From positions 1 through 60,578 of the forward strand of contig NZ_JAMSLR010000015.1 in NCBI RefSeq assembly GCF_023806485.1: a stretch of DNA of 60,578 nt. The letters are read 5' to 3'. Positions within the stretch are counted from its first letter, which is position 1; every line of letters begins with the position of its first letter. Both the position numbers and the translations under genes were made by a program. This document shows positions 15,314-20,786 of this stretch, in pieces. This stretch comes from Thermalbibacter longus. Its GTDB lineage: Bacteria; Chloroflexota; Chloroflexia; Thermomicrobiales; Thermomicrobiaceae. The notes below the pieces were generated by a model, which saw only the letters and a list, made by a program, of their open reading frames with translations, was not told the origin of the DNA and ran no database searches.

Positions 15314-17083
15314 ATGAGCGGGCAGCGCGCAGAGATCTCCTCTGGAGAGCGAACCGTCACGTGGATCCAGGCAGCCGAGACGGCCGAGGCGTACGTGGAG
15401 GCTTTGATTGCTCAGCAGGTATCCTGCCTCTTCCTGAATCCCGGCACCGACACCTTCCCGATTCAGGAAGCAGTGGCCAAGCGCCAGGCTCTCGGGCGGC
15501 CGGTGCCGAAGGTCGTGCTCTGCCCCTTCGAGATCACTGCCCTGGCCGGCGCGCACGGCTACTACGCGGCGACCGGCCGCCCACAGGCGGTGCTGGTGCA
15601 CGTCGACGTCGGGACGCAGAACCTCGGCTCCATGTTGCACAACGCGCAGCGCGGCCGCGCGGCGGTCGTCATCTCGGCCGGCCGGGCACCCTATACCATC
15701 GACCGCGAGGTGCGCGGCGCTCGCGACTCGTACATCCACTGGCTGCAGGAGCAGATGGATCAGCACGGGATCGTGCGCAACTACACCAAGTGGGACTACG
15801 AGCTGAGGCGCCCGGATCAGGTCGGCGAGGTTATCGTCCGGGCGTTCCAGATCGCGGCCAGTGATCCGCCTGGCCCGGTCTACCTGACGCTGCCGCGCGA
15901 GGTGCTGATGGCTTCTCCCGGTGACGTGCGGATCTATCGCCCGGAACGCTTTCCCCCGGCCCGGATCGGTGCCGGTGATCCTGAGGCGCTACACGAGGTG
16001 GCGCGGCTGCTGGTGCAGGCCGAGCGACCAGTGGTACTGACTGGGAGCAGCGGTCGCACCCGAGGAGGCTTCGAGGGGTTGCTGCGCCTCGCCGAGCTGC
16101 TCGCTCTGCCGGTGGCTGAGTGGCGCGACCGCGTGAATTTCCCGGCCGATCACCCGCTGTATCAGGGGTATGCCGCTGATGCGCTGCTCCGCTCGGCCGA
16201 CGTCGTCCTCATCCTGGATCACGATGTTCCCTATATCCCCACCCGAACCAGCGTTGCGCCCGAGGCGACCGTCGTCCAGGTCGACCTCGACCCGGTCAAG
16301 GAGCGGGTACCGCTCTGGACGTTCCCGGTGGATCTACCCGTTCGGGCCGACACCGCGCGGGCACTCGACGTGATCGCGGGCTACGCTGGCGAGCTGCTCA
16401 CCGACGCCGACCGGCGGCGGGTCGAGAGCCGGCGAGTCGAATTGGCGACCAGCTATGCCCGGCTGCGCGACGAGTGGAACCGCTCGGCGCTGGAGCAGGC
16501 GAGCGCCCGGCCGATCGCGCCAGAGTGGCTCGGCTACTGCCTGGAGCAGCTTCGTCGCAAGGCTCCCGAGCTGATCTTCGTTGTAGAGGCGGTCACGAAC
16601 GGGGCGACGATCGCGCGTCAGGTTCAAGTGGCTGAGTTCGGCACCTGGTTCCAAAGCGGCGGCTCGGGACTCGGCTGGGGCATCGGGGCGGCGGTTGGCA
16701 TTAAGCTGGCCCACCCAGATCGCCCAGTCGCGGCCGTGGTGGGCGACGGGTCGTTCCTCTTCGGCGCCCCGGTGGCCACGCTGTGGACTGCGCTGACGAG
16801 CGGGGCGCCGGTGCTCGTCGTGATCTGCAACAATGCCTGCTACAACGCGACGAAGCAGCCATTGATCGCCGCCTATCCCGAGGGATACTCCGTGCGGCTG
16901 GACCGCTATGTGGGGATCGACCTCGAGCCGGCCCCGCGCTACGACATCCTGGCAGCGTCGGTCGGGGCATACGGTGAGCGGGTCGAAGATCCGGCCGAGA
17001 TCCTGCCGGCACTGGAGCGCGGGCTCGCACGCGTGCGGGATGGACAGTCAGCCGTGCTCGACGTGATCCTGGCGCATCCGTAA
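15314..17083 (+). CDS. Thiamine-diphosphate-dependent enzyme, acetolactate synthase-like
   Basis: A 589-residue protein with the three-domain acetohydroxyacid-synthase/benzoylformate-decarboxylase architecture. The N-terminal pyrimidine-binding domain carries the catalytic glutamate (CPFEITALAGAHGYYAATG, Glu73). A central domain follows (PVVLTGSSGRTRGGFEGLLRLAE). The C-terminal domain has the ThDP motif GDG (477-479) with NN at 506-507. No regulatory subunit gene is adjacent and the active-site surroundings differ from housekeeping IlvB, so this is probably a decarboxylase or carboligase of unknown substrate. GGGAAGG precedes the ATG. Confidence 0.88.
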   Translation: MSGQRAEISSGERTVTWIQAAETAEAYVEALIAQQVSCLFLNPGTDTFPIQEAVAKRQALGRPVPKVVLCPFEITALAGAHGYYAATGRPQAVLVHVDVGTQNLGSMLHNAQRGRAAVVISAGRAPYTIDREVRGARDSYIHWLQEQMDQHGIVRNYTKWDYELRRPDQVGEVIVRAFQIAASDPPGPVYLTLPREVLMASPGDVRIYRPERFPPARIGAGDPEALHEVARLLVQAERPVVLTGSSGRTRGGFEGLLRLAELLALPVAEWRDRVNFPADHPLYQGYAADALLRSADVVLILDHDVPYIPTRTSVAPEATVVQVDLDPVKERVPLWTFPVDLPVRADTARALDVIAGYAGELLTDADRRRVESRRVELATSYARLRDEWNRSALEQASARPIAPEWLGYCLEQLRRKAPELIFVVEAVTNGATIARQVQVAEFGTWFQSGGSGLGWGIGAAVGIKLAHPDRPVAAVVGDGSFLFGAPVATLWTALTSGAPVLVVICNNACYNATKQPLIAAYPEGYSVRLDRYVGIDLEPAPRYDILAASVGAYGERVEDPAEILPALERGLARVRDGQSAVLDVILAHP

Positions 17084-17126: not shown

Positions 17127-17405
17127 CTAGTGAGCGAGCTGGTACGGCCCGTCCACGAACTCGAGCACCAGGATGAAGCGCCGCTCATCGGGCCCCGATC
17201 CTTCCCAGTAGTACGGGTCATCCGGTGAGCAGCGCCAGGAGATCTTGCTAGCGATGCTGGTGCCGAGGACGTCCTCCGCGAGGAACCGGAGGGCTCCATC
17301 GCGCGAGGTGAAGACGCCGATAACTGAACACCGATCGATCCGTGGCCACTCCTGCGTGAGTACCCAGACGGCCGTGCCTGCCGGCGCGTAGTGCGATCGA
17401 TCCAT
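17127..17405 (-). CDS. Small hypothetical protein downstream of the selenoprotein
   Basis: A 92-residue protein (MDRSHYAPAG..., ending VDGPYQLAH) rich in aromatic residues, with WVLTQEW, VIGVFTSRDGALRFL and DERRFILVLEF blocks. CGGGGAGA precedes the ATG. The start lies 14 bases after the read-through stop of the selenoprotein gene, so both are probably co-transcribed. No family recognised. Confidence 0.65.
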   Translation of the reverse strand: MDRSHYAPAGTAVWVLTQEWPRIDRCSVIGVFTSRDGALRFLAEDVLGTSIASKISWRCSPDDPYYWEGSGPDERRFILVLEFVDGPYQLAH

Positions 17406-17419
17406 TCATCTCCCCGCTG

Positions 17420-18928
17420 TTACGACTTGATCGGACCCAACTGGTCCGCGGTCGGCTCTGCTCAGCAGAACCACGATTCGGTGAGGCGTGGCGGTGGAGG
17501 GCGATGCCCACGCCGCGGTGGTTCTGCTGGTATTGCGACTCCCGCAGCCTCGCAGGCGAGCGCCCGCACGGCCGCGAAGGTCGTGTGGCTGCTCCAGCCC
17601 TCACGCGTTGCCTGCTCCACCAGCGTTGCCACCTGTTGCTGCAGGCGATCGACTCGCGGGTCAGGGTGCGTCCAGGTGTAGGTGAAGCTGGCCTCGTCGA
17701 GCGGGCCGATCCACTCGGCGGCGTCCGGCCGGTCGAGCAGCGCCGAACCCGGCGGCACCAGCAGCCGGATCGAGAAGTGTACCGGATCCACATGCTCGAT
17801 CAACCCCTGCTCCTCGATGAAGTCGAGCAGTTCCAGATAGTCCTCGAGCGTGGTCCAGGGGGTAAAGGGAAGCAGAGAGGGGCGCATGGCGATGCCAGCC
17901 TCGTCCAGCACGCGCAGCGCCTCGACGATATCGGCCTTGCGGTGACCCTTGTCGATCTTCTCCAGCACCAGGTCGCTGACCGATTCGACGGCCGAGACGA
18001 CGAAGACGCATCCCAGCCGCCGGAATTCGGGGAAGAGCTCGCGGTGACGCAGGATATGCTCGATCCGGGTCGTGAAGTCGAAGGTGACCTCCGGGAACTC
18101 CTCGTGCAGCGCCTGGCAGATGCGCAGGCTATGCGTGGGACCGTTGAGGAAGTCCGGATCGCCGAAGGTGATGTGGCGCGCTCCCTGGCGTACCTGCCGG
18201 CGGATATCGGCCAGCACCACCTGGCGAGGGATGGCGAAAAAGCGGCCCCGATACAGCGGGACGATCGGGCAGTGCAGGCAGGTATGGTGGCAGCCGCGGG
18301 TTGTCTCGGTATAGCCAGCCGGTACGATACGGCCGTCCATGACCAGGTGGGCGTAGTGGCGCGGCGGCGGCAGATCGGAGCGGTCAGGCTCCGGGAAGTC
18401 GATCCGGGCCAGTGATGGGCCTGCCCGGTGGACACGATCGCTGACGCCGGGGACTGGGCCTGGATCGCCGCGCTCGAGCGCCTGGATCAGGGCCAGTAGC
18501 GGAGCCTCGTACTCGCCGCCGATGACGAAGTCGGCCCACTCGCGCAGCAGGTACTCGGCGTTCAGCCAGGCGTAGAGGCCGTAGAAGCAGAGCAGCGCGT
18601 CCGGGTTCCGGCGCCTAACGCGCGCGGCCAGCTCGACACCGAGCCGGAGCGCGGTGTGCATCGGCACCGAGATGGCGACCAGCCGCGCGGCGGCGATGGC
18701 CGCGTCGTCCGGTGGGGCCACCGCCGCGTCGACGGCGACAGGCCGGTAGCCGGCGCGACGCAGGTAGGCCAGTGGGAAAGCCAGGTTGAGCGGCTGGTGG
18801 CCCAGTTCGTAGCAGGAGAGCAGCAGGATCGCTCCCGGCTCCTTGAGATCCAGCGGAGCTGGCCGAGGTGTCACCCTCGGCAGGCTCTGGCTCTCCGCAT
18901 AGGTGATTGCCGCCGGCAGCGAGGCCAT
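17420..18928 (-). CDS. B12-binding radical SAM selenoprotein with CUAEP tail (TGA read as selenocysteine)
   Basis: A 502-residue protein if TGA at 17464-17462 is decoded as Sec489; a conventional call would stop there at 488 residues. An N-terminal cobalamin-binding-like Rossmann domain (about 30-160; LLLSCYELGHQPLNLAFPLAYLRRAG) precedes the radical SAM core with RGCHHTCLHC, a CxxxCxxC cluster motif at Cys213, Cys217 and Cys220, then FGDPDFLNGP and TTRIEHIL. The C terminus reads RLTESWFC-Sec-AEP followed by ten residues to a TAA stop at 17422-17420. The Cys-Sec-Ala-Glu-Pro tail is the signature of the CUAEP/CCAEP-tail radical SAM (seleno)protein family as I recall it. Its reaction is unknown. 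ATG at 18928 has GGGAG upstream; the upstream extension would overlap the preceding gene. Confidence 0.9.
17423..17461 (-). promoter_or_regulatory. Putative bacterial SECIS element after the Sec UGA
   Basis: Thirteen bases after the UGA a perfect 6-bp stem CGGACC (17448-17443) / GGTCCG (17437-17432) closes a 5-base loop AGTTG with G as its second base. A lower stem CGAC (17454-17451) / GTCG (17426-17423) can extend it across an internal loop. The loop starts 19 bases after the UGA, inside the 16-37 base window usually quoted for bacterial SECIS elements, with the expected G among the first two loop bases. Confidence 0.75.
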
Positions 18929-18998: not shown

Positions 18999-20786
18999 TC
19001 AGACTGGGATGCCGGGGCTGAATTCTTCTTCGGTGATGGCCGCGTCGCCTCCGGAGTATCCGGCCGCGGCACCATCGGCCCGCCAGCAGGCACCCCCGCG
19101 GAGTAGCCCGGTCTCGGGATCGATGAGGATGCCGTTCATCCCGCCGGCTACCTTCGGCACGACCTGCACGGTATGCCCGCGGCGCTCCAGGTCGGCCATC
19201 AGCTCCGGCAGGCGGTCGTACCCGCGCTCCAGCTCCAAAACCGGCCCGCGGTCGAAGAGCCTGGGTGCCTCCATAGCCTCCTGCACGCTCATGCCGAAGT
19301 CGATGACGTTCAGGATCGCTTGCAGGACCGAGCCGAAGATGCGCACCCCGCCAGGAGTGCCGATCGCCAGCAGTGGTTTCCCATCCTTGAGGACGATGGT
19401 GGGCGACATCGAGGAGAGGATGCGCTTGCCGGGAGCGATCGAGTTGGTGCGGCCCGGCGTCGGATCCATCAGCTTCATGCAGTTGTTGAGGAGCATCCCG
19501 GTGCCTGGCACTGTCACCTTCGACCCGAAGGCGCCGTTCAGAGTCTGGGTAGCCGAGACCATGTTCCCTTCGGCGTCCACGGCGCAGCAGTGGGTCGTGC
19601 AGGTGCCCTCACCGTCCGGCGCGATCCCAGCCGCGTACTGCTGCGCTCGCCCCATGTCGATCTGCGCTCGTCGCTCGGCAGCGTAGTCTTTGGAGGTGAG
19701 CCACTCCACCGGCACCTGCACCCGTTCAGGGTCGGCGAGGTAGCGGGCGCGATCGGCAAAGGCGATCTTCATGGTCTCGGCGATCAGATGCACGGTATCA
19801 GGTGTGCCGAAGCCCAGCGTGGGCAGGTCGAACCCTTCCAGGATGTTGAGCATCTGGACGATGTGGACGCCGCCGGAAGAGGCCGGCCCCATCGAGACGA
19901 TCTCATAGCCACGGTACGTGCCGCGCACCGGCTCTCGCTCGTAGACGCGGTAGCGAGCCAGGTCGTCGAGCGTGATCAGCCCGCCGTTGGCTGCCATGTC
20001 GCGCGCGACGACCTGGCCGAGCTGACCTCCGTACAGGTGCCCAGCGCCCTCGGTGCCGACCCGCTCGAGGGTAGCCGCGTACTCGACGCGGCGGAGGACG
20101 GAGCCAGCGGCAGCCGGTCTGCCTCCTGGGAGGAAGATCTCGGCTGAGGCGGGGAAGCGACTCAGCGCGGCCTCGCACAGGCGGATGAAGCCGTGCAGTT
20201 AGGGGCTGACCCAGAAGCCCTGGCGCGCGTAGCGCACCGCCGGCTCCACCACGACGGCGAGTGGGAGACGGCCATAGCGCTCGAGCGCCGTCGTCCAGCC
20301 CAGCAGGCTGCCCGGCGTGGCCACTGCCAGGTACCCGGTGTCGTTCAGGCCGCCCTCGACCTCGTTGTCCAGCGAGCCAGGGATCGGCACGTACATGTCC
20401 TCGCGCGCCGCCAGCGGAACGACGGCATAGTCGTCGATCGTGGTCAGCGTGCCGTCGGCGAGCCGGATGGTGAGGAAGCCGGCCCCGAAGATCGAGACCA
20501 TCATCGGCTCGACGACCGAGAGCGCGAACAGCGTCGCCACCGCCGCGTCGATCGCGTTGCCGCCCCGTATCAGCATCTCGACGCCGGCCAGCGATGCCAG
20601 GGGATGGTTGGAGGTCACCATCCCCAGCGAGGCGACCGCCTCGCGCTTGAGGGTCGGCCTGCCGGTGCCGAAGCCCACTCCCATGATGCCTGATCGCCTC
20701 CCTCCCTCGACCCGAAGCTGCGCCAGCGCACGATACCGCGCCTTCTGGGCGAGAGCAAGATCGCGCAGTGCCTCGGGACGAGTCAT
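18999..20786 (-). pseudogene. Gamma-glutamyltransferase family gene interrupted by one in-frame TAA
   Basis: Read in one frame, 18999-20786 encodes a full-length (about 595-residue) gamma-glutamyltransferase-like protein, interrupted only by TAA at 20201-20199 (codon 196). Upstream part: GMVTSNHPLASLAGVEMLIRGGNAIDAAVA and VVEPMMVSIFGAGF. Downstream part: FLPGGRPAAAGSVLRRVEYAATLERVGTEGAGHLYGGQ, then the autoprocessing and catalytic region TCTTHCCAVDAEGN (nucleophile Thr near codon 397), SATQTLNGAFGSKVTVPGTG and NNCMKLMDP. There is no frameshift. Stop before the catalytic subunit means no active enzyme unless the stop is suppressed or is an assembly error. TAA excludes selenocysteine. Confidence 0.85.

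Follow-up and report, generated by a model that had tools for sequence, protein, structure and literature searches.

In the model of the bacterial SECIS (bSECIS), an apical loop of 3-9 nt tops a stem of 4-16 bp, with a G among the first two loop bases, a spacing of 16-37 nt and an energy of -7.5 kcal/mol or below (as given in the part of PMC13188914 consulted). The protein family that bears most directly on the locus described here is NF040546, the "CUAEP/CCAEP-tail radical SAM (seleno)protein", whose name implies both selenocysteine (Sec) and Cys members. Because this NCBIfam name shows that its authors regarded the family as selenoproteins, the kind of selenoprotein was already known. No mention of CUAEP was found in the literature searched, and NF040546 does not occur in a review of prokaryotic selenoproteins from 2026 (PMC13188914). 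The nearest other named family is ArsL of arsinothricin biosynthesis (NF040542), which is reported to form a C-As bond by moving the aminocarboxypropyl group from SAM onto As(III) (PMC8552651). Our protein matches it with 323.2 bits over residues 34-440 and shares its CxxxCxxC motif, but this score lies below the curated cut-off of 450, and the CUAEP tail falls outside the aligned part. Among the fold matches listed for the predicted structure, AprD4 is the closest (Z 27.5; 413 residues, 3.7 Å), and OxsB (Z 25.9), MgmA (Z 25.8) and TsrM (Z 25.1) are also listed; sequence identity to these four proteins is only 15-20%. AprD4 works without cobalamin, and we know of no Cys-Sec tail in AprD4, OxsB, MgmA or TsrM.

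The window analysed here is the whole of a 60,578-nucleotide stretch of Thermalbibacter longus (phylum Chloroflexota, hereafter the host phylum). It contains the following features.

17420..18928, minus strand: gene for a predicted radical SAM selenoprotein of the B12 type (NF040546 match, translation through TGA, Pfam Radical_SAM, AlphaFold2 model)
18269..18292, minus strand: CxxxCxxC [4Fe-4S] motif of the radical SAM domain (coordinates derived from the numbering of C187, C191 and C194, alignment A3)
17464-17462, minus strand: UGA, the putative selenocysteine codon 489 of the ATG-started frame (a TGA or Cys codon stands exactly here in 150 orthologous tails)
17420..17461, minus strand: 13-residue tail AEPTADQLGPIKS, ended by the true stop codon TAA (17422-17420) (translation; the start of the tail is common to Cys orthologues)
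17432..17448, minus strand: candidate SECIS hairpin, stem CGGACC/GGUCCG, apical loop AGUUG (covariation; held-out covariance model)
17423..17454, minus strand: lower stem of 4 bp between nt 8-11 (17454-17451) and nt 36-39 (17426-17423), formed here but non-conserved

Counted from the presumed start, the ATG at 18928, the gene comprises 502 codons followed by TAA, and the open frame extends upstream to a GTG at 19093. Codon 488, immediately before the UGA, encodes Cys, giving an adjacent Cys-Sec pair when the TGA is read as Sec; the translation then ends in RLTESWFC-Sec-AEPTADQLGPIKS. A gene caller that terminates at UGA makes the protein 14 residues too short and loses both the selenium and the tail. 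NF040546 matches over its full length (777.2 bits against a curated cut-off of 500), and the CUAEP tail that it requires is present (ESWFC-U-AEPTADQLGPIKS), with no essential difference between the family and the window's protein. Pfam Radical_SAM also exceeds its cut-off. The Pfam B12-binding domain scores 25.6 bits, below the cut-off of 32.1; the fold matches cover that region. All 26 members of alignment A3 have the CxxxCxxC motif and the CUAEP/CCAEP tail without variation, and the AlphaFold2 model made from this alignment has a mean pLDDT of 91, with the final residues below 50. Judged by these matches, the encoded protein is a member of a selenoprotein family already named by NCBI, NF040546.

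Two further genes lie close by. A 92-residue open reading frame (17127-17405, minus strand) has its ATG 14 bases past the stop codon of the selenoprotein gene; it has no Pfam or NCBIfam match, and besides the window's own copy a similar sequence was found only in L004 among 100 loci searched. At 15314-17083 (plus strand) lies a convergent gene for a thiamine-pyrophosphate enzyme (NF006203, 695.8 bits).

Numbered from the base after the UGA, CGGACC occupies nt 14-19 (17448-17443), AGTTG nt 20-24 (17442-17438) and GGTCCG nt 25-30 (17437-17432). The original prediction had described a 6-bp stem and an AGTTG loop beginning 19 nt after the UGA, with G at loop position 2, and each of these points was confirmed on the minus strand. 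Its assignment of bacterial SECIS geometry was also borne out, since a 5-nt loop, 6 bp, AG, 19 nt and -9.3 kcal/mol lie within the published bSECIS limits. Indeed, loop length, stem length, the G at position 2 followed by U and the 19-nt spacing are the same as in the bSECIS model of Zhang and Gladyshev (2005), as far as this is rendered in the consulted part of PMC13188914. Taken as strong evidence by itself, however, the geometry did not hold up: when both strands of the window are counted, 152 of its 1301 TGA trinucleotides have a hairpin within these limits, 91 of them one that is at least as stable. Similarly, the 42-nt piece does fold as described (-13.5 kcal/mol), yet equal stability was reached by 22 of 200 dinucleotide shuffles, and with a z of only -1.45 we rejected any significance from the single-sequence fold. 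The 4-bp lower stem that had also been proposed does exist in the window, but among the 67 distinct UGA tails it has all four pairs only in that of the window itself, and it was discarded as part of the conserved element. Rfam gave no match at gathering score across the window and none to E 5 at the hairpin site. Since the single sequence is no better than chance, the evidence rests on the orthologues.

These were drawn from three sources: 80 loci from one scan of genome contigs, a search of 400 genomes of the host phylum with NF040546 (matches over cut-off in 92) and 40 further stretches. Including the window there were 151 loci, of which 150 gave a tail (L076 gave none); the codon at the Sec site is TGA in 75 and TGC or TGT in 75. 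Two loci at contig edges (L135 and L147) were excluded from all hairpin counts. Because some genes occur under two ids, tails identical over 48 nt were collapsed and only distinct ones counted, reducing the UGA forms from 73 to 67 and the Cys forms from 75 to 64. One genome has two family matches of equal length and score (G182:C2:30641-32038 and G182:C35:110839-112236), possibly a duplicate or an assembly copy. The titles of two MAG contigs look wrong: the family gene of L058, titled Bifidobacterium breve, groups with IMCC26256-type Actinobacteria, and that of L064, titled Dehalococcoides mccartyi, with unnamed Chloroflexi.

The absence of a conserved stem from orthologues that carry TGA would have spoken against the original prediction. 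Instead, the stem was found at the same place, with at least five of the six pairs in 57 of the 67 UGA tails, rising to 66 of 67 when a register with a 4-nt loop was also allowed. Among the Cys tails the corresponding counts were 7/64 in the 5-nt-loop register and 9/64 in either. Of the ten UGA tails below five pairs in the main register, nine reach five with a 4-nt loop and one, L085, has only four in either; most such low-pairing tails are of the Ktedonobacteria type and need the 4-nt loop, often with an A.C mismatch, which occurs at pair 17-27 in eight UGA tails. Thus about one-sixth of the orthologues depart from the bSECIS consensus in needing a 4-nt loop or an A.C mismatch. A strict perfect-stem rule is passed by 39 of the 67 UGA tails, all at the same spacing, and by 8 of the 64 Cys tails, only one of them at the spacing of the UGA forms. 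Within the loop, nt 21 is G in all 67 distinct UGA tails and the loop starts AGUU in 55 of them.

Compensatory changes, for which the original prediction had suggested looking in related genomes, are present in the UGA forms, and covariation is absent from the Cys orthologues. By corrected mutual information, stem pairs 18-26 and 15-29 rank first and second of 990 column pairs in the UGA tails, whereas the ranks of all six stem pairs in the 64 distinct Cys tails lie between 44 and 990. On a protein tree of 135 rows made by a quick method, with double changes counted over the 69 UGA rows with a full tail, the six stem pairs need 33 double changes that keep the pair; controls in which the partner was slid by -3, -2, -1, +1, +2 or +3 nt gave 1, 2, 2, 4, 2 and 2, respectively. 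Additionally, a covariance model of 26 sequences from other families matches 17427-17452 on the minus strand with 32.8 bits (E 5e-6), the next score in the window being 13.3 bits. Alignment A2 consists of 26 hand-picked sequences from families other than the window's, all with a perfect 5-nt-loop register; its 100% pairing is by choice, because only perfect-register sequences were picked, and the unpicked set is that of the 67 UGA and 64 Cys tails.

Synonymous codon exchange separates the demands of the RNA from those of the protein. The UGA tails have a mean of 5.30 of 6 pairs against 4.04 after exchange (sd 0.10, maximum 4.30, 200 draws), and their mean energy over nt 11-33 is -9.99 kcal/mol against -5.02 (60 draws); for the Cys tails the means are 2.69 pairs observed and 2.49 after exchange (sd 0.11). 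Codon choice under the loop follows the same division: the Gln codon is CAG in 61/61 UGA but 40/58 Cys tails (p 5e-7, ignoring kinship), and the Leu codon is TTR in 31/31 UGA but 12/29 Cys tails (p 1e-7, also ignoring kinship). Together these comparisons of orthologues indicate that the hairpin is conserved and selected as RNA in the UGA forms.

Sec and Cys have replaced one another repeatedly. By parsimony the tree needs at least 14 Sec-Cys switches, or 8 when only well supported branches are counted. Four Cys genes of Thermogemmatispora (L014, L016, L019 and L095, the last assigned by its grouping on the tree) retain five or six stem pairs at the place of the SECIS, and among the Cys loci searched with the covariance model only L019 and L014 matched there. 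These hairpins are probably relic SECIS elements, as expected after recent Sec-to-Cys changes. In one genome the relationship between hairpin and reading frame differs: the tail of L108 (G340:C4:135145-136533) ends UAEPA-TAG, with the TAG five codons after the UGA, and its hairpin GGGCC[GGUCG]GGUCC starts at the last base of this TAG. Kept behind a stop codon, the hairpin would there have no protein-coding role, making it an apparently untranslated SECIS in a bacterium.

The window's genome encodes the machinery for selenocysteine. SelA scores 531 bits, SelB exceeds its cut-off, tRNA-Sec (selC) scores 75 bits with anticodon TCA, and SelD (376 bits) has an in-frame TGA of its own. The latter gene (contig C1:375586-376518; L128, L193) has its in-frame UGA in ASCAGUAGK, a second selenoprotein. 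SelA was over cut-off in 49 of 51 other UGA-form genomes, the two misses being 76% and 86% complete. In the host phylum it was likewise over cut-off in 42 of 44 genomes with the Cys form and in 58 of 80 that lack the family; at 49/51 versus 42/44, it fails to discriminate UGA from Cys forms within that phylum. Across phyla the figures are 51/53 UGA against 62/86 Cys genomes (p 2.5e-4, ignoring kinship and with six repeated Cys genomes excluded). Two partial matches (G188 and G286) were left out of the SelA counts. In a search that took 49 of the 80 scanned loci, with 27 of the 49 over the SelA cut-off, the sole UGA form outside the host phylum (L023) has SelA, and SelA was absent from all 11 Nitrospirota/Nitrospinota genomes searched, every one of which carries a Cys codon.

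We therefore propose, with a probability of about 95%, that the hairpin is a bacterial SECIS by which UGA codon 489 is read as selenocysteine in a cobalamin-type radical SAM enzyme with a Cys-Sec tail. SelB contacts the G-U in the SECIS loop. At codon 489, SelB carrying Sec-tRNA(Sec) would bind the apical loop 19 nt downstream and deliver selenocysteine, and chain termination would be avoided. The predicted product is a cobalamin-type radical SAM enzyme with the adjacent Cys-Sec pair in its C-terminal tail (CUAEP).

One competing possibility is that translation simply ends at the UGA, the hairpin having arisen by chance or marking the beginning of a terminator. The window taken by itself is compatible with this, given the 152 TGAs with such a hairpin and the 22 shuffles that fold equally well, and the small open reading frame at 17405-17127 (minus strand) does begin shortly downstream. 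However, the frame past the UGA is common to the Cys orthologues, where it encodes the CCAEP tail, and the stem covaries across the phylum, which makes termination here very improbable. A different kind of readthrough, independent of SelB, could insert Cys or Trp by a near-cognate tRNA while the hairpin merely slows the ribosome. Cys forms are indeed common, and Sec in the protein is itself deduced from the gene; but the presence of SelA in 51 of 53 UGA-form genomes, the loop G expected of a bSECIS and the exclusive use of Cys in the 11 SelA-less genomes of Nitrospirota/Nitrospinota leave this mechanism with very little probability.

It might also be argued that the stem pairs only as a consequence of the conserved protein, the motif AEPTxDQLGP happening to be self-complementary when encoded. 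In keeping with this, the loop codons of Cys forms, too, encode Q and a hydrophobic residue, and even the null of shuffled synonyms retains 4.04 of 6 pairs. The observed 5.30 is nevertheless far above that null, the Cys tails lack covariation, and the codon choice in the loop is fixed in the UGA forms only. Moreover, few Cys orthologues outside the relic clade share these codons and this pairing, and the hairpin of L108 is kept behind a stop codon. An origin of the stem in the protein sequence is thus highly unlikely, and the SECIS reading accounts for the element. It is well supported that this SECIS is genuine but ordinary in kind.

The genes that accompany the family offer a lead to its function. 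Clustering of the neighbouring genes in 20 genomes yielded an L-amino-acid ligase of the ATP-grasp type (ATP-grasp_4 plus LAL_C2), a formyltransferase-like protein and YggX, a protein of Fe(2+) trafficking; no arsenic gene was conspicuous in this set. In the flanks of the 80 scanned loci the ligase was found at 33, the formyltransferase at 19, YggX at 22 and at least one of the three at 43. In the window's near relatives (L004-L013) ligase, formyltransferase and YggX are absent from beside the gene. In the window's genome the ligase lies on a different contig, where it adjoins a formyltransferase-like gene and has metK and ahcY nearby:

C2:21699-22913 (L192:7155-8441, minus strand) and L192:5822-6763 (minus strand): ATP-grasp L-amino-acid ligase and formyltransferase-like gene of the window's genome

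The ligase was detected in 22 of 22 family genomes tested against, at E <= 1e-60, 7 of 80 host-phylum genomes without the family (1/4 and 6/76 in two genome sets), a co-occurrence with p 1e-16 when kinship is ignored.

As the likeliest pathway we infer one in which an unusual amino acid is derived from SAM and coupled to another amino acid, the Cys-Sec pair serving as a site for redox chemistry or for a soft element. The role of the Cys-Sec pair itself is a guess and much less certain: it might bind or activate a soft metal(loid), or work as a redox couple of thiol and selenol for an amino acid derived from SAM. This guess is made because the nearest named family makes arsinothricin, an arsenical amino acid, and because the genes travel with an L-amino-acid ligase. 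Tentatively, and with the odds rather against it, the CUAEP/CCAEP enzyme may be the core of an undescribed, widespread pathway shared with the formyltransferase-like protein and the ATP-grasp ligase. There a radical step resembling that of ArsL would make an unusual amino acid, perhaps on a soft element bound by the Cys-Sec pair of the tail, and the ligase would couple the product to another amino acid. The co-occurring ligase provides a testable pathway partner for the NF040546 family.

Finally, the 67 UGA and 64 Cys tails form an unusually clean data set for the evolution of bacterial SECIS elements, showing their upkeep by compensatory change, their decay after Sec-to-Cys replacement and, in one genome, their apparent survival outside the coding region.
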